A DNA stretch of 64,000 bases, from contig NZ_JASHIM010000006.1 of the NCBI RefSeq assembly GCF_030733685.1, positions 1-64,000 of the forward strand, read 5' to 3'. Shown here one piece after another: positions 13,228 to 27,569 of the stretch (position 1 is its first letter; each line of letters starts with the position of its first letter). The notes under the pieces were generated by a model, which did no database searches, was not told where the DNA came from, and saw only the letters and a program-made list of their open reading frames with translations. Both the position numbers and the translations under genes were made by a program. This stretch comes from Roseovarius sp. MMSF_3281. GTDB lineage: Bacteria > Pseudomonadota > Alphaproteobacteria > Rhodobacterales > Rhodobacteraceae.

Positions 13228-14136
13228 ATGACCCAACGTGCCGGATTCATCGCCCTGATCGGGGAACCCAATGCGGGCAAATCGACGCTTCTTAACCGGA
13301 TGGTGGGGGCGAAGGTTTCGATCGTGACGCACAAGGTGCAGACCACGCGGGCGCGGATCAGGGGGGTGGCCATCGAGGGCGAGAGCCAGTTGGTGTTTGT
13401 CGACACGCCGGGCTTGTTTCGGCCGCGCCGCCGGTTGGACCGCGCCATGGTGGCCGCGGCTTGGGGGGGCGCGGCGGATGCCGATGTGATCGTTTTGTTG
13501 ATCGAGGCGCATCGCGGGATCACCGAAGGGGTCGAGCGGATTCTGGAAAGCCTGGACGAGGTGGCCACCGGACGCAAGGTGGCGCTGGCCATCAACAAGA
13601 TCGACCGGGTGAAATCGGAGGTCTTGTTGGGCCTGACCGAGAAGATGAATGCCCGGTTTGCCTTTGCCGAGACCTTCATGATTTCCGCCGAACGCGGCCA
13701 TGGGGTGGAAGATTTGCGCAAATGGCTGGCGGGCGAGGTGCCGGAGGGCCCGTGGCTTTACCCCGAGGACCAGATTGCCGATTTGCCGATGCGGATGATC
13801 GCCGCCGAGATCACGCGCGAGAAGCTGACCCTGCGTTTGCATCAGGAGTTGCCCTATCAGTTGACGGTGGAAACCGAGAACTGGGAAGAGCGCAAGGATG
13901 GATCGGCCCGCATCGACCAGATGATCTACGTGGCCCGCGATGGCCACAAGGGGATCATCCTTGGCAAGAAGGGTGAGACGATCAAGGCCGTGAGCAAGGC
14001 CGCGCGCGAGGAGTTGGAAGAATTCCTTGGCCGCAAGGTGCATCTGTTCTTGCAGGTCAAGGTGCGGCCCGGGTGGCTTGAGGAAGCCGAGCGCTATTCC
14101 GAGATGGGGCTTGAATTCAAGGACGGCAACGCGTGA
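13228..14136 (+). CDS. era: GTPase Era
   Basis: Binds GTP and the 3' end of 16S rRNA during 30S maturation. In 302 residues: G1 GEPNAGKST (about 11-19), G2/G3 region ending DTPGLF, G4 NKID, then a KH domain after about residue 200 with YVARDGHKGIILGKKGETI containing the GxxG RNA-binding loop. The G3 extension RRRLDRAMVAAAW is typical. It follows rnc and overlaps the DUF1491 gene by four bases, as in other Rhodobacterales. Confidence 0.96.
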   Translation: MTQRAGFIALIGEPNAGKSTLLNRMVGAKVSIVTHKVQTTRARIRGVAIEGESQLVFVDTPGLFRPRRRLDRAMVAAAWGGAADADVIVLLIEAHRGITEGVERILESLDEVATGRKVALAINKIDRVKSEVLLGLTEKMNARFAFAETFMISAERGHGVEDLRKWLAGEVPEGPWLYPEDQIADLPMRMIAAEITREKLTLRLHQELPYQLTVETENWEERKDGSARIDQMIYVARDGHKGIILGKKGETIKAVSKAAREELEEFLGRKVHLFLQVKVRPGWLEEAERYSEMGLEFKDGNA

Positions 14137-14465
14137 CGCGCCTGACGGCGGAATTCTGGGTGCAGGCCTATCTGGCGCGGTTGCGATTGCAGGAGATTCC
14201 GGCCTTCGTGGTGGCGCATGGCGATGACACGGCGGGCGCGGTGCTGGTCAAGTTGAACACCCTCGACGGGCAGGCCCGGGCCTTTCAGCGGTCTTTCGAT
14301 TTGATGAGCGGCGCGCGCATCTGGGCCACCTTGGCCGAGGGGGAGGAGCGCGCGGTGGATGAGGCCGTGGCCAGGCAAAGGTCGTTCGATCCCGATCTTT
14401 GGGTCATCGAGGTCGAGGATCGGGCCGGGCGGCACTTGCTGGATGAGCCGGGCTTGGCTGATTGA
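14133..14465 (+). CDS. DUF1491 family protein
   Basis: A 110-residue soluble protein beginning MTRLTAEFWVQAYLARLRLQ and ending in a acidic strand region with FDPDLWVIEVEDRAGRHLLD; both are DUF1491 hallmarks. The function is unknown. It overlaps era by four bases (ATGA), so it is translationally coupled. In many relatives recO is close by; here the syntenic block stops at this gene and an unrelated operon begins after an AT-rich gap. Confidence 0.82.
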   Translation: MTRLTAEFWVQAYLARLRLQEIPAFVVAHGDDTAGAVLVKLNTLDGQARAFQRSFDLMSGARIWATLAEGEERAVDEAVARQRSFDPDLWVIEVEDRAGRHLLDEPGLAD

Positions 14466-14572: not shown

Positions 14573-15307
14573 GTGTCGGCAGAGAACGGCAGTTTGAAGG
14601 TGACTGTATGGCGTGGCGATGGGGCCACCGGAGCTTTCGAGACGCATGAGGTGCCAAGGCAGGAAAGCCAGACGGTTCTGGATGTCGTCAGTTGGATTCA
14701 GCAATATGCCGATCCGACCCTGACCTATCGTTTCGCTTGCCGTGTCGGTATGTGCGGCAGCTGCGCGATGATGGTGAACGGGGTGCCGCGTTGGACCTGC
14801 CGAACCCACGTGGGCAAGGTGGCGACGGGTGACAGCCTGACGGTGGAGCCGCTGCGCAATTTGCCCGTGATCAAGGATTTGGCGGCCGATATGGACCCGT
14901 TCTTCGATAAATGGGTCAAGGCCGAGGCGGTGCATCATCCCAGTGAGACACGCCACGATCCGATTCGCCCGGTCGATACGGAAACCGAGGCGCGCCAACA
15001 GGCCGATGTCGGGATCGAATGCATCAATTGCGCGGTGTGCTACGCGGCCTGCGATACTGTGGCGGGGAACCCCGATTACCTTGGGCCCGCCGCCTTGCAA
15101 CGGGCATGGACGCTTTACAATGATGAGCGCGAGGCCAATCCCGAGGCGATCCTGGACGCGGTATCGGGCGTGGGGGGCTGTCACAACTGCCATTCCATGG
15201 GCAGTTGCACGCAGTATTGCCCGAACGAATTAAATCCCTTGGCGGCGATCGCGGGCTTGAAGCGCGAGACCACCAAGCGCGTGTTTCGGAGGCGGAGGAA
15301 TGATTGA
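14573..15307 (+). CDS. Succinate dehydrogenase/fumarate reductase-like iron-sulfur subunit
   Basis: A 244-residue electron-transfer subunit. The N-terminal ferredoxin domain has CRVGMCGSC plus a distal Cys in VPRWTC for a 2Fe-2S cluster. The C-terminal domain has CINCAVCYAAC and CHSMGSCTQYCPNELNP for 4Fe-4S and 3Fe-4S clusters, with one extra Cys (GGCHNC) not usual in SdhB. Electrons would pass from the flavoprotein gene three places downstream to quinone at the anchors. It starts with GTG and overlaps the next gene by eight bases. Whether it works as dehydrogenase or reductase, and on which dicarboxylate, is not set by sequence. Confidence 0.88.
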   Translation: MSAENGSLKVTVWRGDGATGAFETHEVPRQESQTVLDVVSWIQQYADPTLTYRFACRVGMCGSCAMMVNGVPRWTCRTHVGKVATGDSLTVEPLRNLPVIKDLAADMDPFFDKWVKAEAVHHPSETRHDPIRPVDTETEARQQADVGIECINCAVCYAACDTVAGNPDYLGPAALQRAWTLYNDEREANPEAILDAVSGVGGCHNCHSMGSCTQYCPNELNPLAAIAGLKRETTKRVFRRRRND

Positions 15308-15632
15308 TCTACGACTTTACATGGCGCAGCGCTTGAGCGCGCTGATCATGGCGCCATTGGTCATCGGGCATATCGCGGTGATGATCTATGCCATACAGGG
15401 TGGGCTGAGCGTGGACGAAATCCTGGGGCGTACTCAGGACTCATTCGCGTGGTTTGCCTTTTACGGGCTCTTTGTACTGGCGGTTTCGGTGCATGCGGCC
15501 ATTGGCCTGCGGGTGATCGTGCATGAATGGCTTGGCCTGAAAGGCGGCGGTTTACAGGCCTTTACATGGGCCGTGGCACTTGGCCTGCTGGTGATGGGAG
15601 GGCGGTCTGTCTGGGCCGTGACCTTCGCATGA
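15300..15632 (+). CDS. Succinate dehydrogenase-like membrane anchor subunit (first)
   Basis: A 110-residue protein with three hydrophobic segments (about 12-32, 50-72, 86-106). His residues in IGHIAVMIY and SVHAAIGLRVIVHEW are placed where haem b or quinone ligands lie in Sdh/Frd anchors. Similarity to named SdhC/D proteins is low, as usual for anchors; the role comes from topology and position between the B and A subunits. It overlaps the iron-sulfur gene by eight bases and the next anchor by four. Confidence 0.75.
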   Translation: MIDLRLYMAQRLSALIMAPLVIGHIAVMIYAIQGGLSVDEILGRTQDSFAWFAFYGLFVLAVSVHAAIGLRVIVHEWLGLKGGGLQAFTWAVALGLLVMGGRSVWAVTFA

Positions 15633-15970
15633 AGGCCCCGCCGCGCGCACATCCCCTTTGGCTGGCCTTCGTGCTGCACCGGGTGTCGGGCCTTGCCCTG
15701 GCGCTGTTCTTGCCGGCGCATTTCTGGGTGCTGGCCAATGCGGTGACGGCCCCGGGCCAATTGAACAGTTTCCTGCACCTGACCGAACAGCCCTTGGTCA
15801 AGCTGGCCGAGTTTGGCCTTGTGTTCCTGTTGGCGGTGCATTTTTTCGGCGGTTTGCGCCTTCTGGCGCTGGAGTTGCTGCCGTGGAGCGACACGCAAAA
15901 GACCCTTGCCGCGGGCGCGGTCGGGGTGGCTGTGCTGGTTTCCGGCACGTTTTTCCTGAATGCGATATGA
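15629..15970 (+). CDS. Succinate dehydrogenase-like membrane anchor subunit (second)
   Basis: A 113-residue protein with three membrane segments (about 10-33, 50-72, 88-110). HRVSGLALALFLPAHFW near residues 17-33 is close to the conserved SdhC pattern (HRxSGxxL), and a further His lies in LAVHFFGGLRLLALE. The start at 15629 overlaps the previous stop (ATGA), which rules out the longer open frame. Together with the preceding gene it would make a six-helix quinone-reactive anchor carrying haem b. Confidence 0.78.
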   Translation: MKAPPRAHPLWLAFVLHRVSGLALALFLPAHFWVLANAVTAPGQLNSFLHLTEQPLVKLAEFGLVFLLAVHFFGGLRLLALELLPWSDTQKTLAAGAVGVAVLVSGTFFLNAI

Positions 15971-15971
15971 C

Positions 15972-17729
15972 ATGACCACACAGATCGACACACATGACAC
16001 CGATATCCTGATCCTTGGCACCGGGGGGGCGGGGTTGTTTGCCGCGCTGCATGCCCAGCAATCGGCGCCCGAGGGGACCAAGATCACCATTGCGGTCAAG
16101 GGGCTGATCGGCAAATGCGGCTGCACGCGGATGGTGCAGGGGGGCTATAACGTGGCGCTTGGGGGCGGCGACACCGTCGAGCGGCACTTCATGGACACGG
16201 TCATGGGCGGGAAATGGCTGCCCAATCAGGATATGGCGTGGCGGCTGTGCAAGGAGGCGGTGACCCGCATCCACGAGTTGGAAAACGAGGTGGGCTGTTT
16301 CTTTGACCGTAACCGGGACGGGACGCTGCACCAGAAGGCCTTTGCCGGGCAGACCGCCGACCGCACGGTGCACAAGGGCGATTTGACGGGAATCGAGATC
16401 ATCAGCCGCTTGATGGAGCAGGTTCTGTCGCGCCCGGTTGAGAAACTGCAGGAGCATCGGGCGATCGGCTTGATCCCCACCCGTGACGGAAGTGCCCTTG
16501 CCGGAGTGCTGATGATCGACATGCGCACCGGGCGGTTCCGGCTGGTGCGGGCCAAGACGGTGCTTATGGGCACCGGCGGCGGGCCGACCATGTACAAGTA
16601 TCACACGCCCTCGGGCGACAAGACGATGGATGGTTTGGCCATGGCCCTGCGCGCGGGGCTGCCCTTGCGCGACATGGAGATGGTACAGTTTCACCCAACG
16701 GGGCTTTTGGCCGGCGATCACACCCGGATGACCGGCACGGTGCTTGAGGAGGGCCTGCGCGGGGCCGGGGGGCAGTTGCTCAACGGCTCGGATCACCGGT
16801 TCATGTTCGATTACGACGCGAAGGGCGAACGCGCGACGCGCGATGTTGTCAGTCGCGGCATCTACGCGGAAATGCGCAAGAGCAACACCACCGTGAACGG
16901 CGGCGTCTATATCTCGATGAGCCATCTGGGGCCGGAGTTCGTGGCCGAGAAGTTCAAGGGTATGGTCAAGCGCTGTGCCGATTGCGGGTTCGATCTTGCC
17001 GGGGGCAAGGTCGAGGTGGTGCCGACGGCGCATTACTTCATGGGCGGTGTCGTGGTGGATGTGGATACCCGCACCGCGATGGAGGGCCTTTACGTGGCCG
17101 GTGAGGATGCCGGCGGCGCGCATGGCTCGAACCGTTTGGGCGGCAATGGCGTGGCCAATTCCACCGTTTACGGTGGGATTGCGGGCGATACCATGGGCGC
17201 CGACATTCGCACCATGGGCGCGCTGCGTGAACCGGACCCCGAGGTTCTGGAGGCCGAGGTGGCCCGCGCGATGCAACCGTTCAGCAAAAAACCCGACCTG
17301 ATACAGCCGCTGCGCGACCGCTTGCAGGAGGTGATGTGGGATGACGTGGGTGTCATGCGCATGGCCGACAAGATCGTGCGCGGGCAGGCACAGGTGGCGT
17401 CGATCCGCGACGACCTGATGGAGGTTGGCGTCTCGGATGACACCCGAGCCTTCAACCTGACATGGCACGATTGGCTGAACATGGCCTCATTGTGTGATAT
17501 ATCCGAAGTGATCGCAGGGGCGGCCTTGGCGCGGGAAAACTCGCGCGGGGCACATTACCGCGAGGATTTCCCCGAAGAAGGGGATTTGGAGACCTCGTAT
17601 TTCACCGTGGCGCGGCAGGTTGATGGCGCGCTTGAGGTGGGACGCGAAGATGTTGATTTTTCCATCGTTCGCCCCGGGGAAAGCATTTTGCCCGAGGGAG
17701 AACCAGACACATTGGTGGCAGCGCAATGA
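15972..17729 (+). CDS. Succinate dehydrogenase/fumarate reductase-like flavoprotein lacking the FAD-linking His
   Basis: The FAD-binding catalytic subunit, 585 residues. Substrate-site residues known from FrdA/SdhA are all visible: QFHPTG, the general-acid Arg in ATRDVVSR, AHYFMGG, and GSNRLGGNG. The dinucleotide fold opens at ILILGTGGAG (about 13-22). The His that covalently holds FAD in SdhA/FrdA (SHTxxAQGG) is replaced: the segment reads CGCTRMVQGG, putting Cys51 in that place, so FAD is probably bound non-covalently as in L-aspartate oxidase. ATG at 15972 lies one base after the anchor stop. An unusual member of the family; substrate may be a succinate analogue. Confidence 0.88.
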   Translation: MTTQIDTHDTDILILGTGGAGLFAALHAQQSAPEGTKITIAVKGLIGKCGCTRMVQGGYNVALGGGDTVERHFMDTVMGGKWLPNQDMAWRLCKEAVTRIHELENEVGCFFDRNRDGTLHQKAFAGQTADRTVHKGDLTGIEIISRLMEQVLSRPVEKLQEHRAIGLIPTRDGSALAGVLMIDMRTGRFRLVRAKTVLMGTGGGPTMYKYHTPSGDKTMDGLAMALRAGLPLRDMEMVQFHPTGLLAGDHTRMTGTVLEEGLRGAGGQLLNGSDHRFMFDYDAKGERATRDVVSRGIYAEMRKSNTTVNGGVYISMSHLGPEFVAEKFKGMVKRCADCGFDLAGGKVEVVPTAHYFMGGVVVDVDTRTAMEGLYVAGEDAGGAHGSNRLGGNGVANSTVYGGIAGDTMGADIRTMGALREPDPEVLEAEVARAMQPFSKKPDLIQPLRDRLQEVMWDDVGVMRMADKIVRGQAQVASIRDDLMEVGVSDDTRAFNLTWHDWLNMASLCDISEVIAGAALARENSRGAHYREDFPEEGDLETSYFTVARQVDGALEVGREDVDFSIVRPGESILPEGEPDTLVAAQ

Positions 17730-18685
17730 TTGCAATCGACACGATTCAAAGCACCGCCGAAACCCTGATGGACAAGGCGGCCATCGAAATTCCGCAGGAT
17801 TACCTGGACGGGCTTCAGGCGGCGGCGAAATCCGAGGACGGTGATCTTTCGTCCTTTGTTTTGCAGGCTATGCTTGAAAACTACGAGGCCGCCAAGGAAG
17901 ACCGCCGCGCCATGTGCGGCGATACCGGCGTGCCCCGGTGGTTCGTCAAGATGGGCAACGAGGCGCAGGTTGAGGGCGGCATGTGCGCGCTTGAAACCGC
18001 GCTGCGGTCGGCCACGGCAAGTGCCACCAATGGTGTGCCCCTGCGGCCCAACCGGGTGCATCCGCTATGGCGCACGGATCACAACAACAACGTCGGTATC
18101 GGCGCGCCCGAGATCGAATACGGGTTCGAGCCCGAGGGCGATTGGATCGACCTGATCACGGTACACAAGGGCGGGCTGTTTGGCACCGATTACCGCATGC
18201 TGTTCCCATCGGACGGGATCGAGGGGATCAAGCGGTTTTACCTTGATACGCTGGTGGCTTTCGGCAAGCGGGGCCTTGCCTGCCAGCCCGCGATCATCGG
18301 GATCGGTCTTGGCGGGTCGAAAGACACCTGCATGGTTTTGGGCAAACGGGCCTCGGTGCTGCGCACCGTGGGCAGCCGCAACTCGGACCCCAAGATCGCC
18401 GAACTGGAAGATGAGTTGAAAGAGCTTGGCAATTCCATCGGCATGGGGGCCATGGGATTTGTCGGCAAGAACATGGTGATCGATTGCAATATCGAGGTGG
18501 GCTATTGCCACACCGGGGGCATGCAGATGAGTGTGCATGCCTTTTGCCTGAGTTCGCGGCGGGCCGTGGCGCGCATCTATCCCGATGGCCGCGTCGAATA
18601 CCGCACCGACCCCGATTGGTTCACGCCGTATCAACGGCGCGAGACCGTGGAGTGGGATCCGGCCGCGTCGCAGGCGGCGGAGTGA
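17726..18685 (+). CDS. Class I fumarase/tartrate dehydratase-type hydratase, alpha subunit
   Basis: The iron-sulfur half of a two-subunit class I hydro-lyase (319 residues). Three Cys suited to a 4Fe-4S cluster are visible: AMCGDTGVP (about 64), GLGGSKDTCM (about 199) and GYCHTGGMQMS (about 263). Relatives hydrate fumarate, dehydrate L-tartrate or hydrate mesaconate. The partner is encoded two genes downstream, at 19895, with a CoA-transferase gene in between, which is unusual. It overlaps the flavoprotein gene by four bases. The match to the family is good, the substrate open. Confidence 0.85.
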   Translation: MIAIDTIQSTAETLMDKAAIEIPQDYLDGLQAAAKSEDGDLSSFVLQAMLENYEAAKEDRRAMCGDTGVPRWFVKMGNEAQVEGGMCALETALRSATASATNGVPLRPNRVHPLWRTDHNNNVGIGAPEIEYGFEPEGDWIDLITVHKGGLFGTDYRMLFPSDGIEGIKRFYLDTLVAFGKRGLACQPAIIGIGLGGSKDTCMVLGKRASVLRTVGSRNSDPKIAELEDELKELGNSIGMGAMGFVGKNMVIDCNIEVGYCHTGGMQMSVHAFCLSSRRAVARIYPDGRVEYRTDPDWFTPYQRRETVEWDPAASQAAE

Positions 18686-18692
18686 TCCTGCT

Positions 18693-19898
18693 ATGACTGG
18701 CACCCCCCTTGAGGGTCTGCGTATCCTTGACCTGACCCATGTTCTGGCCGGGCCCTATGCCACCGGGCAACTGGCCCTGATGGGGGCCGAGGTGATCCGG
18801 GTGGAACGGCCCGGATCGGTGGATTTCGTCCGCCGCCACGGGGGCGATGCAGTGATGCAGGACGCGGGGCTTGGCGCCTCGTTCCTGAGCCAGAACGCAG
18901 GCAAGCGTTCCACGGTGATCGACCTGAAAAGCGATGAGGGCCGCGACCTGGTTTTGCGCATGGCGGCACAGGCGGACGTCTTCGTCGAGAATTTCCGCCC
19001 CGGCGTGATCGACCGTCTGGGGCTGGGCTATGACGCGGTGCGCGCGGTTCGTCCTGACGTGATCTATGCCAGCATCTCGGGCTTCGGGCCGGACGGGGCA
19101 TTGTCGGATCGCCCGGCCTATGACCATATTCTACAAGGCCTTAGCGGGTTGATGGCAATGACCGGCACGCCCGAAAGCGGGCCGATGCGCGTGGGGTTTC
19201 CCATCGTGGATTACATCGCCGGCCAAGCCTTGATTGCCGCCGTTCTGGCCGCGATCATCCAACGCGGCAAAGCCCCGGGGCAGGCACAGCGTTTGCATGT
19301 CTCTATGCTGGATGCCGTGGTGAACCTGATGGGCCCCTATGCGGTCAACTGGCAGGCCACGGGCAACATGCGCGGGCTTGAAGGCAACCGGGCCTTCTCG
19401 GATTCGCCTTTCTCGGGGCGGTTCGATACAGCCGACGGCCAGATCGTGGTGACCGCGAACACGCCCGCGCAATCGGTGCGCTTGTGCGCCGCGATCGGGC
19501 GGCAGGATCTGGTAGGGGAGACGGATAACGAGGCCGTGCGCGCGGTCTTGGATGCCGTCTTTGCCGCGCGCCCCACGGCGCATTGGGATAGGGCCTTGGC
19601 GCAGGCCGAGGTGCCCGCCGGGCCGGTTCTCGGGCTTGATGACCTGCTTTCGGACCCGGCGCTTGCGGCGCTTTTGTCATGGCAGGATCTGGACGTGCCG
19701 GAACTGGGGCGCGCATTCCGCGTTCCGGGGCTGAGTTTTTCCGCCCCCTGGGCGCCTCGAACCCTTGCCCATGCGCCAAGATTTGCCCGCGACACCAAAA
19801 GCGTTTTGGCAGCTATGGGCATTGAAGACACAGAGATTGACCGGCTGTCGCAGGCTGGCATCATTCACACGGAAACCGATAAGGAGGACCAGATATGA
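18693..19898 (+). CDS. CaiB/BaiF family III CoA-transferase
   Basis: A 401-residue family III CoA-transferase, which moves CoA between carboxylic acids through an aspartyl-CoA intermediate. The beginning LEGLRILDLTHVLAGPYATG and RVERPGSVDFVR are typical; the catalytic Asp is probably Asp173 in RVGFPIVDYIAGQ. It lies between the two hydratase subunit genes, seven bases after alpha and overlapping beta by four. That placement suggests it activates the hydroxy-acid made by the hydratase (malate or citramalate type). It is about the same length as the second CaiB gene at 23469 but clearly different in sequence. Confidence 0.87.
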   Translation: MTGTPLEGLRILDLTHVLAGPYATGQLALMGAEVIRVERPGSVDFVRRHGGDAVMQDAGLGASFLSQNAGKRSTVIDLKSDEGRDLVLRMAAQADVFVENFRPGVIDRLGLGYDAVRAVRPDVIYASISGFGPDGALSDRPAYDHILQGLSGLMAMTGTPESGPMRVGFPIVDYIAGQALIAAVLAAIIQRGKAPGQAQRLHVSMLDAVVNLMGPYAVNWQATGNMRGLEGNRAFSDSPFSGRFDTADGQIVVTANTPAQSVRLCAAIGRQDLVGETDNEAVRAVLDAVFAARPTAHWDRALAQAEVPAGPVLGLDDLLSDPALAALLSWQDLDVPELGRAFRVPGLSFSAPWAPRTLAHAPRFARDTKSVLAAMGIEDTEIDRLSQAGIIHTETDKEDQI

Positions 19899-20563
19899 AA
19901 CCACGCGAGGTCCGACTGAGCACGACGCCCACCGATGAGGAAATTGCCGCGCTTCGGCTGGGCGATATCGTCTACCTGGATGGTTTGATGTACACGGCGC
20001 GCGAAGGCGTCTATATGCGCGCGCTTGAGGAAAAAGCCAATATTCCCATGGAGTTGCCTTCGGAAAGCGCGGCAAATTTCCATTGCTCGCCCGCTGCGGT
20101 GATCCGCGAGGATGGCAGTTTCGACATGGGGGCGGTGACGGCCACGGCCTCGTTCCGGTTTGCCAAGTGGTTGCCCGAGTGGATCGCCAAGACCGGCGCG
20201 AAGCTGATTATCGGCAAGGGCGGTATGAGTTCCAAGGACTACAAGGAATATTTCGTGCCCAACGGCGCGGTTTACCTGTCCACCGTTGGCTATGGCACCG
20301 GCGCGCTTTTGGGGCGCGGGGTCGAGAACGTGGAAGCCGTGCATTGGAACGAGGAACTGGGTCTGGCGCAGGCGATGTGGGTTATTCGCTGTAACAAGAT
20401 GGGGCCGTTTATCGTGGCCTCGGACATGGAGGGCAATTGCCTGTTCGAGCGGGAAAATGCCCGGATTACCAAGAACTTGGAGCATGTTTACGAAGGAACC
20501 AGGCCTGCCGTCTTGCGCCGCTATGGCGAAACCGATGATCGCAGCGACGAGGTTATCGGATGA
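19895..20563 (+). CDS. Class I fumarase/tartrate dehydratase-type hydratase, beta subunit (divergent)
   Basis: The 222-residue swivelling subunit. LRLGDIVYLDGLMYTAREG near the start and LIIGKGGMS near 105 match the family. The substrate-loop motifs depart from it: the usual YYxGP reads FHCSPA, and the usual GPTTSGRMD reads TATASFRFAKW. This argues for a substrate other than plain fumarate, or a different subfamily. It overlaps the CoA-transferase gene and the following molybdoenzyme gene by four bases each. The subunit role is secure by family and position, the specificity unknown. Confidence 0.78.
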   Translation: MKPREVRLSTTPTDEEIAALRLGDIVYLDGLMYTAREGVYMRALEEKANIPMELPSESAANFHCSPAAVIREDGSFDMGAVTATASFRFAKWLPEWIAKTGAKLIIGKGGMSSKDYKEYFVPNGAVYLSTVGYGTGALLGRGVENVEAVHWNEELGLAQAMWVIRCNKMGPFIVASDMEGNCLFERENARITKNLEHVYEGTRPAVLRRYGETDDRSDEVIG

Positions 20564-21657
20564 GCGACAATCCGTTCCGTGGTGAACATGCAAGAGAAGT
20601 GACCGCCTCGGGGGTCTTTTCGCAACACGAAGTGAGCTTGGCCAACCGGAATTCGGGCGTTTTCCTGGAGATGCTCGCGCTGGATATCACGCCCGTGGGG
20701 GCGCATTACTTGCTGAGCCATTTCGATGTGCCTTTGCTGCAGGCGGGGGCGCATCGGCTGGTGCTGGACGGGGCCTTCGACGCGCCGTTCGAGATGAGCC
20801 TTGAAGAGATACGTGCCGAGCCACAAGTGACCATGCCGGTCACCATGGAATGCGCCGGCAATGGCCGGACAGGCATGGAACCGCGTTCCTTTTCAATGCC
20901 TTGGGCCTATGAGGCGGTGGGCACGGCCGAATGGACCGGCACGCCGCTGGCGCCGTTGATCGAGCGCGCCAAGCCACAGGGTGGCGTGGTGGATTTTGCC
21001 TTCGAGGGGGCCGATTTCGGTTATGACAAAGGCGTGGGCCATGCCTTTGGCCGAAGCCTGACACCCGAGGAATTGGACCGTTTGGAGGTGCTGTTGGTCT
21101 ACGAGATGAACGGCCAGCCCTTGTTGCCCCAACACGGCGCGCCGCTACGATTGATCGTACCGGGATGGTACGGAATGGCCAGTGTGAAATGGCTGAACCG
21201 GATCACGGCGATGACTGAAAGGTATCAAGGGTTTCAACAGGTTGGCACCTATCGTTTTCGCCAGGCCGCCGATGATCCGGGCGAGCCCGTCACCGAGGTC
21301 AGGGTCAAATCCCTGATGGTGCCGCCGGGGGTTCCGGACTGGATTACCCGCAAGCGCCGGCTGTCGCCGGGCCGCGTGACCCTGCAGGGCCGGGCGTGGT
21401 CGGGCGCGGGCGTCCCGGTTGAGCGGGTCGAGGTGCGGATCGGTGAGGACTGGCACGAGGCCAAGGTAGAGGCGCCCGTGGGGCGTTATGCATGGTCCGG
21501 GTGGTCGTTCGACTGGCAGGCCGAACCGGGGCATTACCTGCTGGCCTGTCGGGCGACGGATGCCGAGGGCAACATGCAGCCGATGGAGGCGGCGTGGAAC
21601 CTGTCGGGCTTTGCCAATAACGCGCCGCATGAGGTCGAGGTTTTCGTGGAAGACTAG
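20560..21657 (+). CDS. Sulfite oxidase-fold molybdopterin enzyme (SoxC/SorA-like)
   Basis: A 365-residue protein with an N-terminal molybdopterin domain and a C-terminal Mo-co dimerisation domain (about 245-360, starting near VTEVRVKSLM). MECAGNGRTGM (about 93-103) contains the Cys that ligands molybdenum in the sulfite oxidase family, and GWYGMASVKWL is the family substrate-region motif. No Tat or Sec signal is seen, so it looks cytoplasmic, unlike SoxC or SorA. It overlaps the hydratase beta gene by four bases and ends the operon. It may oxidise sulfite released by the pathway or act on another oxyanion. Confidence 0.83.
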   Translation: MSDNPFRGEHAREVTASGVFSQHEVSLANRNSGVFLEMLALDITPVGAHYLLSHFDVPLLQAGAHRLVLDGAFDAPFEMSLEEIRAEPQVTMPVTMECAGNGRTGMEPRSFSMPWAYEAVGTAEWTGTPLAPLIERAKPQGGVVDFAFEGADFGYDKGVGHAFGRSLTPEELDRLEVLLVYEMNGQPLLPQHGAPLRLIVPGWYGMASVKWLNRITAMTERYQGFQQVGTYRFRQAADDPGEPVTEVRVKSLMVPPGVPDWITRKRRLSPGRVTLQGRAWSGAGVPVERVEVRIGEDWHEAKVEAPVGRYAWSGWSFDWQAEPGHYLLACRATDAEGNMQPMEAAWNLSGFANNAPHEVEVFVED

Positions 21658-23468: not shown

Positions 23469-24653
23469 TCAGGTCTTGTTCTTTCTGGCCGAAGGCCCGT
23501 CGCCCGCAGGCGCATCCAGCCATGTCAAAATCTCGGCCCGGTCGCCATCCAGCAGGGGCGCGGGGCGGCGGGTTTTGGGATCGTCCATATCCGACAGCTT
23601 GATGGGGTTGCCGGCGGCCAGGTATTTCGGCACGCCATCCGCGCCCAGCACATCCACCACCATGTTGCGGGCCAGGATTTGCCGGTCTTGCAGGGCTTCG
23701 GCGACGTTTTGAATGGGGCCGGTGGGCACGCCCACGGACTCCAGTTTTTCGACCCAATATGCCTTGGGCCGGTCCAGCGTGATTGCCTCGATCAACCGCT
23801 TGAGCGTGCGGGCGTTTTCACAGCGCGCCGGGTTGGTGGCAAAACGCGGATCATTGGCCAAGGGCAGGCCCAGAACATCGCAGAGCTTGGCAAAAAGCGC
23901 GTCATTCCCGGCGGCGATGACGAACAACCCGTCGGCGGCGTGGAAGGTCTCGAACGGGGTGATCGACGGGTGGCGCGCGCCTGTCGGGCCGGGCGGCGTG
24001 CCGGTGGTGGTGGTCAGGGCGATGGCATGTTCCAGGATGGCCAATTGCCCGTCAAGCATGGCCACATCCACCTTCTGGCCCCGGCCCGTGGTGTCGCGGG
24101 CCATCAAGGCCCCCATCACCCCTTGCACGAGGTACATGCCCGCCACGATATCGCCGATACTGGCGCCCACGCGCACCGGATCGCGCCCCGCCTCGCCGGT
24201 GATCGACATCACGCCGCTGCGCGCCTGCACCACCATGTCATACGCGGGTTTCAGGGCCTCGGGGCCGGAATGGCCGAACCCGCTGACCGCGCCATAGATC
24301 AGGCGGGGGTAACGGGCGTGCAGGTCATCCCATCCATAGCCCAGCTTTTCCATCGTGCCGGGGCGGTAGTTTTCAAGCACCACGTCGGCGCGGGCCAGAA
24401 GCCGCTCGAAAATCGCCCGGTCGCCCTCGGCCTTCAAATCAAGGGCGATGCTTTGCTTGGAGTGGTTGATGGTGGCGAAATAGGCGCTTTCGCCATCCTT
24501 GAAGGGCGGGAAGGCGCGGGTATCGTCGCCCACGCCGGGGCGTTCCACCTTGATCACATGCGCGCCAAGATCGGCCATTGTCATCGAGGCGAAGGGCCCG
24601 GCCAAAACATGGGTCAGGTCCAGAACGGTCACGCCTTCAAGGGGCTGGGTCAT
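23469..24653 (-). CDS. CaiB/BaiF family III CoA-transferase (second)
   Basis: A 394-residue family III CoA-transferase. LEGVTVLDLTHVLAGPFASM, IKVERPGVGDDTR and YFATINHSKQSIALDLK are characteristic, and the likely catalytic Asp is Asp168 in RVGASIGDIVAG. The ATG at 24653 is preceded by AAGGAAA; the upstream in-frame ATG has no such site. It is on the minus strand, convergent with aroA. The two CaiB proteins in the window belong to different subgroups, so this is probably not a tandem duplicate. Substrates of this subgroup include succinyl-CoA/dicarboxylate pairs, not resolved here. Confidence 0.87.
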   Translation of the reverse strand: MTQPLEGVTVLDLTHVLAGPFASMTMADLGAHVIKVERPGVGDDTRAFPPFKDGESAYFATINHSKQSIALDLKAEGDRAIFERLLARADVVLENYRPGTMEKLGYGWDDLHARYPRLIYGAVSGFGHSGPEALKPAYDMVVQARSGVMSITGEAGRDPVRVGASIGDIVAGMYLVQGVMGALMARDTTGRGQKVDVAMLDGQLAILEHAIALTTTTGTPPGPTGARHPSITPFETFHAADGLFVIAAGNDALFAKLCDVLGLPLANDPRFATNPARCENARTLKRLIEAITLDRPKAYWVEKLESVGVPTGPIQNVAEALQDRQILARNMVVDVLGADGVPKYLAAGNPIKLSDMDDPKTRRPAPLLDGDRAEILTWLDAPAGDGPSARKNKT

Positions 24654-24817
24654 GCGGTTTCCTTTTTCGGTCATGGTCCGCCCTGCTTAACGGGAATTTA
24701 CAACAGCGCCCTGACACGGATCAAAGCCGGTGACGATTGACAAGGCCGGGCGTGGCACGGCACATCCCCTACCATGGTCACCCGCCGTGTTGTATCTTTC
24801 CTGCCCCGAGGGATGGC

Positions 24818-25414: not shown

Positions 25415-25517
25415 CGCGCGATGCCGCTGGAACGTCATTTTCTGACGGTTGCAGGCTGTCGGTCCCCGGCTAAAGGTCTATGTTGCAATCAACTTTCGGG
25501 AATATGAGGTTTCGGCC

Positions 25518-27569
25518 ATGTCGCAAGATCCCCTTGTCGTCTTTACCCCCTCGGGCAAGCGCGGCCGCTTTGCCAAGGGCACGCCCGTCCTGACCGCCGC
25601 GCGGCAGTTGGGGGTCGACCTTGATTCGGTCTGTGGCGGGCGGGGCATCTGCTCGAAATGCCAGATCACGCCCAGCTATGGCGAATTTTCCAAGCACGGG
25701 GTGACCGTCCATGACGATGCGCTTTCGGAATGGAACAAGGTGGAACAACGCTATGACGACAAGCGCGGTTTGAAACCGGGCCGCCGCCTGGGCTGTCAGG
25801 CGCAGGTGATGGGCGACGTGGTGATCGACGTGCCCCCCGAATCCCAAGTCCACCGGCAGGTGGTGCGCAAGGCCGCCTCGGCCCGGGTGATCGACATGGA
25901 CCCGGCCACGCGGCTGTATTTCGTCGAGGTGGACGAGCCTGACATGCACGAACCCACCGGCGATCTTGAACGGCTGGAACGCGCTTTGAAGCGCGAATGG
26001 GATATCCCCGAAATCCGTGCCGAAGGCTCGCTTTTGTCCAAGCTGCAGCCCACGCTGCGCAAGGGCAAGTTCCAGGTTACCGTCGCCCTGCACAAATCCC
26101 ATACCGATGACGTGGCGCGTGTCATCGACATCTGGCCGGGCCTGCACGAGGACGGTTTGTACGGGCTGGCCATCGACCTTGGCTCCACCACCGTGGCCGC
26201 CCACCTGACCGATCTGGATACAGGCGAGGTCAAGGCCAGCTCGGGCATCATGAACCCGCAAATCCGCTTTGGCGAGGATTTGATGAGCCGGGTCAGCTAT
26301 TCGATGATGAACCCCGGCGGCGATCAGGAGATGACCCGCGCGGTGCGCGAGGCCATCAACACGCTGTCCGAGGAGATCGCCAAGGAAGCGGGGATCGCGC
26401 CGCATCTGATCGTGGAAACGGTTTTCGTCTGCAACCCGGTGATGCATCACCTTCTGCTGGGGATCGACCCTGTGGAACTGGGCCAGGCGCCCTTTGCGCT
26501 GGCCACCTCCGATTCGATTTCCATGCCCGCGCGGGAATTGGACCTGCAGGCCATCAACCCGCGCGCCCGCACCTATGTCTTGCCCTGTATCGCGGGGCAC
26601 GTGGGCGCGGATGCCGCCGCCGTGGCCCTGTCGGAAGAACCCGGCAAATCCGAAGACCTGGTCTTGGTGGTCGACGTCGGCACCAATGCCGAGATCCTGC
26701 TGGGTGACACCTCCCGCGTGCTGGCCTGTTCCTCGCCCACCGGCCCGGCCTTCGAGGGCGCGCAAATCTCAAGCGGGCAGCGGGCCGCGCCGGGGGCCAT
26801 CGAGGCCATCCAGATCGACCCGGACACCAAGGAACCGCGCTTTCGCGTGATCGGCTGTGACAAGTGGTCGGACGAGGAAGGCTTTGACGAGGAAACCGCC
26901 GCCACGGGGATCACCGGCATTTGCGGCTCGGGCATCATCGAGGCGGTGGCCGAATTGCGCATGGCGGGGCTGATGGATGAAAGCGGGCTGATCGGTTCGG
27001 CCGCGGCGACGGGCACCGCGCGGTCCGTGCCCGAGGGGCGCACCCATGCCTACCTGATCCATGACGCCACCGCGACAGGCGGGCCGCGTATCACCGTGAC
27101 CCAAGGCGATATCCGCGCGATCCAACTGGCCAAATCGGCGCTTTACGCGGGCGCGCGCCTGTTGATGGATGAACGCGGCGTGGACAAGGTGGACCGGGTG
27201 GTTCTGGCCGGGGCCTTCGGGGCGCATATCAGCCCCAAACACGCCATGGTTCTGGGCATGATCCCCGATGTGCCGCTTGAGAAAGTGACCAGTGCGGGCA
27301 ACGCCGCCGGCACCGGTGCGCGGATCGCCCTGTGCAACGTGGCGGCACGGCAAGAAATCGAGCGCGTGGTGCGCGAGATCACCAAGGTGGAAACCGCCAT
27401 CGAGCCGAAGTTCCAGGATCACTTCGTGGCCGCCAATGCGATACCGCACAAAACCGACCCCTTCCCGGAACTGTCGAAAATCGTGCCGCTGCCCGATGTC
27501 AGCTTCAACACCGGCGGTGACGGCGACGGCGGCGAGGGCGGGCGACGCCGGCGTCGGCGGCGGGCCTGA
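25518..27569 (+). CDS. RACo-like ASKHA protein, reductive activator of a corrinoid protein
   Basis: A 683-residue protein with an N-terminal plant-type 2Fe-2S ferredoxin domain (DSVCGGRGICSKCQ, fourth Cys in LGCQAQV), a middle domain, and a C-terminal ASKHA ATPase (DUF4445) with GLAIDLGSTTVAAHL and LVVDVGTNAEILLG phosphate loops. Family members use ATP to reduce inactive Co(II) corrinoid proteins back to Co(I), for example in methyltransferase systems. A Gly/Arg-rich tail RRRRRRRA closes it. ATG 25518 follows a TGAGG site. No corrinoid protein or methyltransferase gene is visible next to it, so the client is encoded elsewhere. Confidence 0.87.
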   Translation: MSQDPLVVFTPSGKRGRFAKGTPVLTAARQLGVDLDSVCGGRGICSKCQITPSYGEFSKHGVTVHDDALSEWNKVEQRYDDKRGLKPGRRLGCQAQVMGDVVIDVPPESQVHRQVVRKAASARVIDMDPATRLYFVEVDEPDMHEPTGDLERLERALKREWDIPEIRAEGSLLSKLQPTLRKGKFQVTVALHKSHTDDVARVIDIWPGLHEDGLYGLAIDLGSTTVAAHLTDLDTGEVKASSGIMNPQIRFGEDLMSRVSYSMMNPGGDQEMTRAVREAINTLSEEIAKEAGIAPHLIVETVFVCNPVMHHLLLGIDPVELGQAPFALATSDSISMPARELDLQAINPRARTYVLPCIAGHVGADAAAVALSEEPGKSEDLVLVVDVGTNAEILLGDTSRVLACSSPTGPAFEGAQISSGQRAAPGAIEAIQIDPDTKEPRFRVIGCDKWSDEEGFDEETAATGITGICGSGIIEAVAELRMAGLMDESGLIGSAAATGTARSVPEGRTHAYLIHDATATGGPRITVTQGDIRAIQLAKSALYAGARLLMDERGVDKVDRVVLAGAFGAHISPKHAMVLGMIPDVPLEKVTSAGNAAGTGARIALCNVAARQEIERVVREITKVETAIEPKFQDHFVAANAIPHKTDPFPELSKIVPLPDVSFNTGGDGDGGEGGRRRRRRRA

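Follow-up and report, generated by a model that had tools for sequence, protein, structure and literature searches.

Eight consecutive genes of Roseovarius sp. MMSF_3281 (GCF_030733685.1) raise the question of which acid is processed by an operon that combines a complex II-like dehydrogenase, a class I iron-sulfur (Fe-S) hydratase split into two subunits, a CaiB-type CoA-transferase and a molybdoenzyme. The operon lies in the stretch of 64,000 bases analyzed here (the window: positions 1-64,000 of the forward strand of contig NZ_JASHIM010000006.1). An initial annotation had named the order and the family of each gene and described their tight packing, and both descriptions are borne out: all eight open reading frames (ORFs) lie on the + strand, their junctions are overlaps of 4-11 bases plus one 7-base gap, and the Pfam families are recognized over their cut-offs in every product (Table 1). 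Families, gene order, residue signatures and context can be read directly from the DNA. The operon is very likely an organosulfonate system of some kind, a grade that we infer by summing all readings with a sulfonated substrate. We further regard it as probable, though well short of settled, that its core is a quinone-linked 3-sulfopropanoate dehydrogenase plus an Fe-S sulfoacrylate hydratase, which would together convert 3-sulfopropanoate to sulfolactate.

Named bacterial and archaeal genomes were scanned with the alpha subunit of the hydratase as query, and the loci studied are the best 80 of 280 relatives, in stretches of up to 21 kb each. This sample leans to close relatives: it comprises mostly Rhodobacterales with some Neomegalonema, Salaquimonas and unclassified Alphaproteobacteria, and the best-matching named record is a Roseovarius metagenome-assembled genome. 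Presence was counted by tblastn at thresholds of our own choosing (38% or 50% identity, across half the length). The six genes B-D-C-A-alpha-beta are complete in 77 of the 80 loci and keep this order in all 77; the remaining three miss part of the set and all lie on contigs shorter than 33 kb. The CaiB gene is present in only 12 loci and the molybdoenzyme gene in 13. The core of the system is thus the six genes, to which a minority of loci add CaiB and the molybdoenzyme as accessories. The alpha and beta genes are separated by at most 130 bases in 46 of the 77 complete loci and by more in the other 31, where the gap holds CaiB (12 loci), a homocysteine-S-methyltransferase-like gene (7 loci), or other ORFs or spacer. 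That a CoA-transferase gene should sit between two subunits of one enzyme had seemed odd; its position is confirmed, and CaiB is one of several occupants of an alpha/beta slot that holds various genes across loci. The methyltransferase-like gene occupies this slot in L037, L061, L062, L064, L065, L106 and L107. Separately, a gene for an isochorismatase-family hydrolase lies in the gap between A and alpha in L061, L066, L077 and L088; the stretch of a fifth locus, L083, also contains a match.

The initial annotation had also suggested looking for the eight-gene order in other Rhodobacterales. One genome of the same genus (G007) does have all eight genes in identical order, with 85-99.7% protein identity per gene, but the wider conservation is of the six-gene core only. 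In comparisons with four congeners, in which A and the molybdoenzyme were covered in part only, the hydratase subunits are best conserved (alpha 86-99.7%, beta 91-98%) and CaiB far less so (61-88%).

The labels carried by these genes would place them in the tricarboxylic acid (TCA) cycle: in the annotated bacterial plasmid records that we opened, the core genes are called succinate dehydrogenase and fumarate hydratase. The genome of the window, however, encodes an ordinary SdhA on another contig, 52% identical to E. coli SdhA as against 35% for the flavoprotein of the operon, and a FumC (56% identity; contig C11:353183-354577, in a match containing one marked TAA). The alpha subunit is its sole class I hydratase at E <= 1e-20, and 18 of the 36 genomes examined in the genus, this one included, encode alpha. 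Since ordinary SdhA and FumC exist elsewhere and half of the genus genomes are without alpha, the operon is separate from the TCA cycle, and an ordinary TCA operon is ruled out.

The flavoprotein and its partners resemble complex II in that four subunits (an FAD flavoprotein, a dicluster Fe-S protein and two Sdh_cyt anchors) are encoded in one operon, and in that the equivalents of His242, Glu255, Arg286, His354 and Arg399 (E. coli SdhA numbering) are kept in flavoproteins of the window's type. Residue counts here and below rest on script-called ORFs, whose starts are often too far upstream (A in 76 of the 80 loci, alpha in 78 and beta in 71, plus the window in each case). His242, Arg286, His354 and Arg399 are conserved in all 77 aligned rows and also in nine of nine distant flavoproteins from plasmids (46-81% identity), which include two from haloarchaea and one from an actinobacterium. 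The family nevertheless departs from the E. coli enzymes in several respects: 1) His45 of SdhA, which we take to bind FAD, is replaced by Cys in 77/77 rows and 9/9 distant flavoproteins (Cys55 in the window). 2) Thr254, presumably a substrate contact, is replaced by Glu in the same 77/77 and 9/9 (Glu263 in the window); at these two positions E. coli SdhA, FrdA and NadB have His, His and Ser, and Thr throughout. 3) Relative to SdhA and FrdA there is an insertion of five to six residues just ahead of this Glu, carrying Arg (68/77) or Lys (9/77), the former being Arg256 in the window. 4) The window's flavoprotein scores under the SdhA and FrdA cut-offs. In a tree of 20 rows the 16 flavoproteins of the Cys/Glu type split from the four SdhA/FrdA/NadB rows with a branch support of 100/99, the NadB and FrdA rows being flagged as long branches, and the nearest sequences in the PDB include fumarate reductases as well as succinate dehydrogenases. 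The roles ascribed to these SdhA residues, including those of the presumed acid-binding His and Arg residues, are background from known structures. FAD may be held through Cys in place of His, and the inserted Arg or Lys may offset the new Glu.

A comparable mixture of retained and altered positions is seen in the hydratase. Its division into alpha and beta is that of TtdAB, the three cysteines of alpha (64, 186 and 274) are kept in 79/79 rows, and in the beta motif Thr and Arg are retained. In contrast, the CQDTG of E. coli FumA and TtdAB is CGDTG and their RH is CH in 79/79 alpha rows, and the beta motif GPTT-x-x-R-M becomes TATASFRF in 72 rows, one of which has a single change (to Ser), TATA itself being present in 71/72. 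We take these positions to matter in the active site, as they presumably do in fumarases. Both subunits score below the FumA, TtdA and TtdB cut-offs; alpha is over the cut-off of the TIGR00722 subfamily and beta under that of TIGR00723. Distant copies fall into two types: the first, with C[G/A]DTG and TATASFRF, occurs in Paracoccus, Methylobacterium nodulans, Pseudomonas MPC6, Cupriavidus and Pseudorhizobium, and the second, with CQDTG and GTTTSMRM, in Rhodococcus RHA1 and Methylobacterium radiotolerans.

The conserved surroundings of the core point to organosulfonates, in the form of TauE exporters, sulfite oxidases, sulfate exporters and SuyAB/ComC/SlcC-like and HpsOPN-like genes. Among the 80 loci the neighbours include LysR (71), a TauE/SafE-type exporter (59), a nitroreductase-like gene (39), TctC, TctB and TctA (35 each), a thiamine pyrophosphate (TPP) enzyme (24), a Zn-alcohol dehydrogenase (18), a glutathione S-transferase (17), and a succinate-semialdehyde dehydrogenase (SSADH)-like aldehyde dehydrogenase and a class III aminotransferase (7 each); alcohol and aldehyde dehydrogenase genes stand beside gene B in some loci. 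The nitroreductase is NfsA-like and mostly divergent from gene B (e.g. L083 5283-6116, - strand). In the window's own genome the gene downstream of the operon is, by eye, aroA, and a different contig (C44) carries an enolase-superfamily gene, a TauE-type exporter, LysR, TctC, TctA, a TPP enzyme and a SulP permease. In G007 genes of this type directly follow the operon, in the order of C44. As they are contiguous with the operon there, the cluster seems to have been split just after the molybdoenzyme gene in the window's lineage.

Distant loci on plasmids extend this picture. Of 291 records 40 were listed, 18 of them with at least 45% identity; nine (H3, H5, H8, H10, H11, H12, H16, H17 and H18) were examined and H1, H2, H4, H6, H7, H9, H13, H14 and H15 were left out. 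The records of Cupriavidus P-10 and Rhodococcus RHA1 are unannotated, and the ORFs of the former were called by script. In Paracoccus versutus a single island of about 35 kb contains the operon, a YeiH exporter, a NIPSNAP protein, TauE, LysR, ComC-like and SlcC-like dehydrogenases, TctABC, HpsOPN-like genes, a UxaA-like pair (SuyAB-like), a sulfate exporter, a pyruvate carboxylase and a sulfite oxidase. The names SuyAB, SlcC, ComC and HpsOPN are presumptive, assigned by family, size, layout or order. In the M. nodulans locus SoxC and SorA exceed their NCBIfam cut-offs and are accompanied by a sulfate exporter and TauE; the Pseudomonas MPC6 locus has SorT over its cut-off, TauE, a sulfate exporter and TctABC; and that of Pseudorhizobium has a sulfate exporter, a NIPSNAP protein, TauE, a TRAP transporter and an SSADH-like gene. 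The M. radiotolerans stretch encodes two hydroxyacid dehydrogenases, of which one has L-sulfolactate dehydrogenase as its best NCBIfam match (below the cut-off), together with TauE, a TPP enzyme and a UxaA-like pair arranged like SuyA-SuyB. In the haloarchaea Natribaculum and Haloarcula the flavoprotein and Fe-S subunit genes stand beside TauE, a UxaA-like pair and an argininosuccinate lyase (ASL)-like gene, and no class I hydratase is annotated in these two stretches. This ASL-like lyase may stand in for the hydratase. The gene, called argH, is next to that of the flavoprotein (L119 10218-11720 and L120 10296-11798, both - strand); its product belongs to Lyase_1 and has, by eye, the SSxxMPxKxN motif of the fumarase superfamily. 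In Rhodococcus RHA1 the A, alpha and beta genes were found, and no sulfonate gene was confirmed in that stretch. Near this copy (L118 18504-20399 and the next ORFs) are, by eye, electron transfer flavoprotein-like and Rieske-like genes, perhaps another electron path.

3-Sulfopropanoate is succinate with a sulfonate in place of one carboxylate. In the favored reading the flavoprotein would take two hydrogens from it to give 3-sulfoacrylate, the electrons passing via B and the C/D anchors to quinone (3-sulfopropanoate + quinone -> 3-sulfoacrylate + quinol), and the split hydratase would then act on the unsaturated acid (3-sulfoacrylate + water -> 3-sulfolactate). Substrate, direction and the position taken by the hydroxyl group are all predictions of this scheme. 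In the window's genome sulfolactate would probably be processed through sulfopyruvate and sulfoacetaldehyde to acetyl phosphate and sulfite, a route that could run here because matches to the Xsc and ComE models exceed the cut-offs (ComDE being judged from the ComE model alone); no SuyB match was found in this genome at E <= 1e-20. In Paracoccus and Methylobacterium SlcC/ComC/SuyAB-like enzymes would take over. Uptake would be by TctABC (TRAP elsewhere), control by LysR, and sulfite or sulfate would leave through TauE-type and other exporters. If 3-sulfopropanal, 3-hydroxypropanesulfonate and homotaurine were precursors, this would explain why some species have an aldehyde dehydrogenase, an alcohol dehydrogenase and an aminotransferase encoded close to the operon.

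The same chemistry has been reported within the genus: the passages available from PMC11489063, citing the thesis of J. Mayer, state that Roseovarius nubinhibens ISM degrades homotaurine via 3-sulfopropanoate, sulfoacrylate and sulfolactate, and in those passages no genes are named for the segment from 3-sulfopropanoate to sulfolactate. This strain does not figure among the best 80 of 280 relatives on which the locus set is based. Within the open-licence literature searched, no title or abstract named genes for aerobic 3-sulfopropanoate degradation, and the breakdown genes for this compound appear to be so far unassigned. According to the parts of PMC12421959 consulted, growth of Paracoccus on a sulfosugar raises the abundance of nine proteins encoded in a 'fumarate and tartrate' cluster (locus numbers 751-761), which also includes a TauE homolog; the same paper proposes that SlcC/ComC and SuyAB act jointly on sulfolactate and that TauE exports sulfite. 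Likened to the window by its description rather than its sequence, that cluster is probably an operon of the same type.

Several points weigh against the conversion of 3-sulfopropanoate to sulfolactate. 1) The support for it comes from sequence and context, and the enzyme activity is predicted. 2) The NCBIfam matches for SuyAB, SlcC, ComC and HpsOPN are below cut-offs or generic. 3) Xsc is found in 32 of 36 genomes of the genus, so its presence in this one says little; the association of the operon with ComE in the genus is not significant (10 genomes with both, 8 with the operon only, 4 with ComE only and 14 with neither; p = 0.086); and the operon is absent from both congeners in which SuyB matches strongly. 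4) Distribution is patchy, with a hydratase match at E <= 1e-100 in 24 of 385 sampled alphaproteobacterial genomes. 5) A sulfonate is not an obvious ligand for the Glu that replaces the substrate Thr. 6) If FAD is non-covalent, the change of His to Cys is expected to lower the flavin potential, which suits reduction over oxidation. 7) A gene for a CoA-acylating (methyl)malonate-semialdehyde dehydrogenase, over the NCBIfam cut-off in both cases, overlaps that of beta in Pseudomonas MPC6 and adjoins the core in Cupriavidus P-10; such neighbours are more in keeping with malonate semialdehyde and sulfite as products than with sulfolactate.

The last point leads to the first alternative, in which the hydratase places the hydroxyl group of its product on the carbon of sulfoacrylate that bears the sulfonate, this product breaks into malonate semialdehyde and sulfite, and the operon itself desulfonates. 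Both species with the dehydrogenase have a hydratase of the window's type (CADTG and TATASFRF), whereas M. radiotolerans, with its SuyAB-like genes, has the other, and TauE exporters stand close to the core. Yet P. versutus combines the window's hydratase type with ComC/SlcC/SuyAB-like genes, class I hydratases presumably yield alpha-hydroxy acids chelated to Fe, and the thesis route, as cited in the passages of PMC11489063, passes through sulfolactate. We consider desulfonation by the operon unlikely. Less likely again is another sulfonated acid, chiefly sulfosuccinate, which would be oxidized to sulfofumarate and hydrated at the sulfonate carbon with release of oxaloacetate and sulfite. The sulfonate context would be the same, both enzyme families normally use dicarboxylates, and the presumed acid-binding His and Arg residues of SdhA are kept; however, the aldehyde and alcohol dehydrogenases, the aminotransferase, the malonate-semialdehyde dehydrogenase and the sulfolactate genes would all be left unexplained.

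The Cys at the flavin site, together with the tendency of complex II enzymes without covalent FAD to favor reduction, raises the prospect of operation in the opposite direction, as a sulfoacrylate reductase: sulfolactate would be dehydrated and then reduced to 3-sulfopropanoate as an electron sink. The nearest PDB sequences, which include fumarate reductases besides succinate dehydrogenases, would allow it, and the similar-looking Paracoccus cluster rises on a sulfosugar which, in the parts of PMC12421959 consulted, is degraded via sulfolactate and not sulfopropanoate. But the linked genes are catabolic and sulfite-disposing, and the alcohol and aldehyde dehydrogenases beside gene B in some loci suggest that the saturated acid is being made; reversal is thus decidedly improbable.

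The initial annotation had proposed a path from a saturated acid through an unsaturated acid and a hydroxy acid to a hydroxyacyl-CoA, starting from methylsuccinate, mesaconate or some related C4-C6 acid. Substrates of this kind are not supported by the organosulfonate surroundings and the altered active-site positions. The first part of the path stands on free acids, given the families and their separation from the TCA enzymes, whereas the hydroxyacyl-CoA step lies outside the core, to which CaiB (12/80 loci) does not belong. The specific route from methylsuccinate via mesaconate and citramalate to citramalyl-CoA, with CaiB as the CoA-transferase, is compatible with the families in its reaction logic, and class I fumarases can act on mesaconate according to the part of PMC4682846 seen. 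It is nevertheless rejected as very improbable: CaiB is an accessory which reaches only 198 bits against a cut-off of 700 with the succinyl-CoA:mesaconate CoA-transferase model, the surroundings are those of organosulfonates, the active sites depart from those of E. coli SdhA/FrdA and FumA/TtdAB, and in Cupriavidus necator and Pseudomonas aeruginosa the route uses CoA esters and an acyl-CoA dehydrogenase (PMC12290011, in the portion consulted). Cationic substrates such as dimethylsulfoniopropionate and betaines, considered in view of the new Glu and because some loci have an S-methyltransferase gene in the alpha/beta slot, were dropped given the sulfonate islands.

Of the two accessories, CaiB is a full-length class III CoA-transferase (CoA_transf_3, 331.6 bits, residues 6-367), which matches formyl-CoA:oxalate, succinate--glutarate and YfdE transferases over their whole length and aligns the Asp of their PAYD motif, presumably the catalytic one, but it is far under the cut-off of every equivalog model. 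Of the 71 loci with at least 14 kb of sequence, all 11 with CaiB also have a TPP enzyme, as against 13 of the 60 without it (p = 1e-6, the species being related and hence not independent). The nearest solved structures to this enzyme are benzaldehyde lyase/formolase and 2-hydroxyacyl-CoA lyase. These associations could suggest, as an addition for this genome rather than an alternative to the best explanation, an oxalate-like CoA cycle in which CaiB moves CoA from formyl-CoA to sulfolactate, the TPP enzyme cleaves sulfolactyl-CoA into sulfoacetaldehyde and formyl-CoA, and Xsc completes the route; all three proteins are encoded in the window's genome. However, the molybdoenzyme shows identical numbers in the same loci (11/11 vs 13/60), so the pairing is not special to CaiB; across the genus, where five genomes have a CaiB ortholog and one more a partial match, the TPP enzyme (E <= 1e-100) occurs in only two of them; it is also found without CaiB; and the window's genome has ComE. 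A fixed pair of CaiB and TPP enzyme is therefore rejected, and the cycle itself remains a doubtful addition.

The product of the last gene has the Oxidored_molyb and dimerization domains of SorA and SorT and aligns the Cys of their ECAGN-GR motif, presumably the Mo ligand, yet it reaches 171 bits against a cut-off of 600. The initial annotation had called it a cytoplasmic enzyme of the sulfite-oxidase fold, and in keeping with this the fold domains are present and, judged by eye, it has no leader, in contrast to SorA, SorT and SoxC, which have long N-termini in the alignment. Arg55 of SorA, which we take to bind sulfite, is Leu in the protein and in 10 aligned orthologs (from 10 of the 13 loci with the gene), but Arg in two sulfite oxidases and a SoxC near distant copies of the operon. 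As this Arg is absent, the enzyme is probably not a canonical sulfite oxidase. CaiB might perhaps serve in CoA activation of the hydroxy acid, and the molybdoenzyme perhaps in sulfur or aldehyde oxidation, both roles being predicted from family membership.

Table 1. Genes of the operon, with positions in the window
Gene	Position	Strand	Product	Evidence
B	14573-15307	+	SdhB/FrdB-like iron-sulfur subunit	Fer2_3 and Fer4_17 over Pfam cut-off; dhsB subfamily 178.5 vs 88 bits
D	15300-15632	+	membrane anchor 1, SdhD-like	Sdh_cyt over Pfam cut-off
C	15629-15970	+	membrane anchor 2, SdhC-like cytochrome b556 type	Sdh_cyt over cut-off; TIGR02970 56.4 vs 52.3 bits
A	15960-17729	+	flavoprotein subunit	FAD_binding_2 and Succ_DH_flav_C over Pfam cut-off; Cys55, Glu263, Arg256 in inserted loop
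hydratase alpha	17726-18685	+	class I (Fe-S) hydratase alpha, predicted sulfoacrylate hydratase	Fumerase over Pfam cut-off; CGDTG
CaiB	18693-19898	+	class III (CaiB/BaiF) CoA-transferase, accessory, in alpha/beta slot	CoA_transf_3 over Pfam cut-off
hydratase beta	19895-20563	+	class I hydratase beta	Fumerase_C over Pfam cut-off; TATASFRF
molybdoenzyme	20560-21657	+	SorA-like, accessory	Oxidored_molyb and Mo-co_dimer over Pfam cut-off

The starts of C and CaiB in Table 1 were refined by reading the sequence. For C a start at 15527 is also open, but the overlap with D would then be 106 bases and the ATG at 15629 is preferred; the Sdh_cyt and TIGR02970 scores of C were computed on the long version starting at 15527. 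Just upstream of the operon is a DUF1491 gene (14133-14465), of which a copy of about 90% identity lies upstream in L029 and G007; it was found in one of the 80 loci and is probably mere synteny. A second CaiB/BaiF gene (23469-24674, - strand) lies 2 kb downstream of the molybdoenzyme gene and is among 13 CoA_transf_3 matches in the genome. A long ORF (25449-27569) resembles by eye a corrinoid-protein activator, with ferredoxin and ASKHA domains.

Taken together, a widespread six-gene system, here with two extras and annotated as TCA enzymes, most likely serves the breakdown of C3 sulfonates. 3-Sulfopropanoate and 3-hydroxypropanesulfonate are products of the fermentation of sulfoquinovose and 2,3-dihydroxypropane-1-sulfonate, and 3-sulfopropanoate also arises in the use of homotaurine. 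A named gene set makes the gap in 3-sulfopropanoate degradation directly testable and maps its occurrence. In the sections of PMC12421959 consulted, the look-alike Paracoccus cluster induced on a sulfosugar was interpreted as possibly linked to the Krebs cycle. In a broader form, which we put forward as possible rather than probable, a complex II-type quinone reductase and a class I hydratase would have been jointly re-tooled from C4 dicarboxylates to C3 sulfonates, as a 'sulfonate arm of the TCA cycle' hosted by many Rhodobacterales, Cupriavidus, Pseudomonas, Methylobacterium, Rhodococcus and haloarchaea (with an ASL-like lyase replacing the hydratase), FAD being held maybe via Cys, and CaiB with a hydroxyacyl-CoA-lyase-like enzyme finishing the route in some lineages. 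If the assignment is true, annotations as succinate dehydrogenase and fumarate hydratase would be corrected, the marine sulfur cycle would gain a step, and the operon would offer a clear example of two consecutive TCA-type enzymes being recruited jointly.

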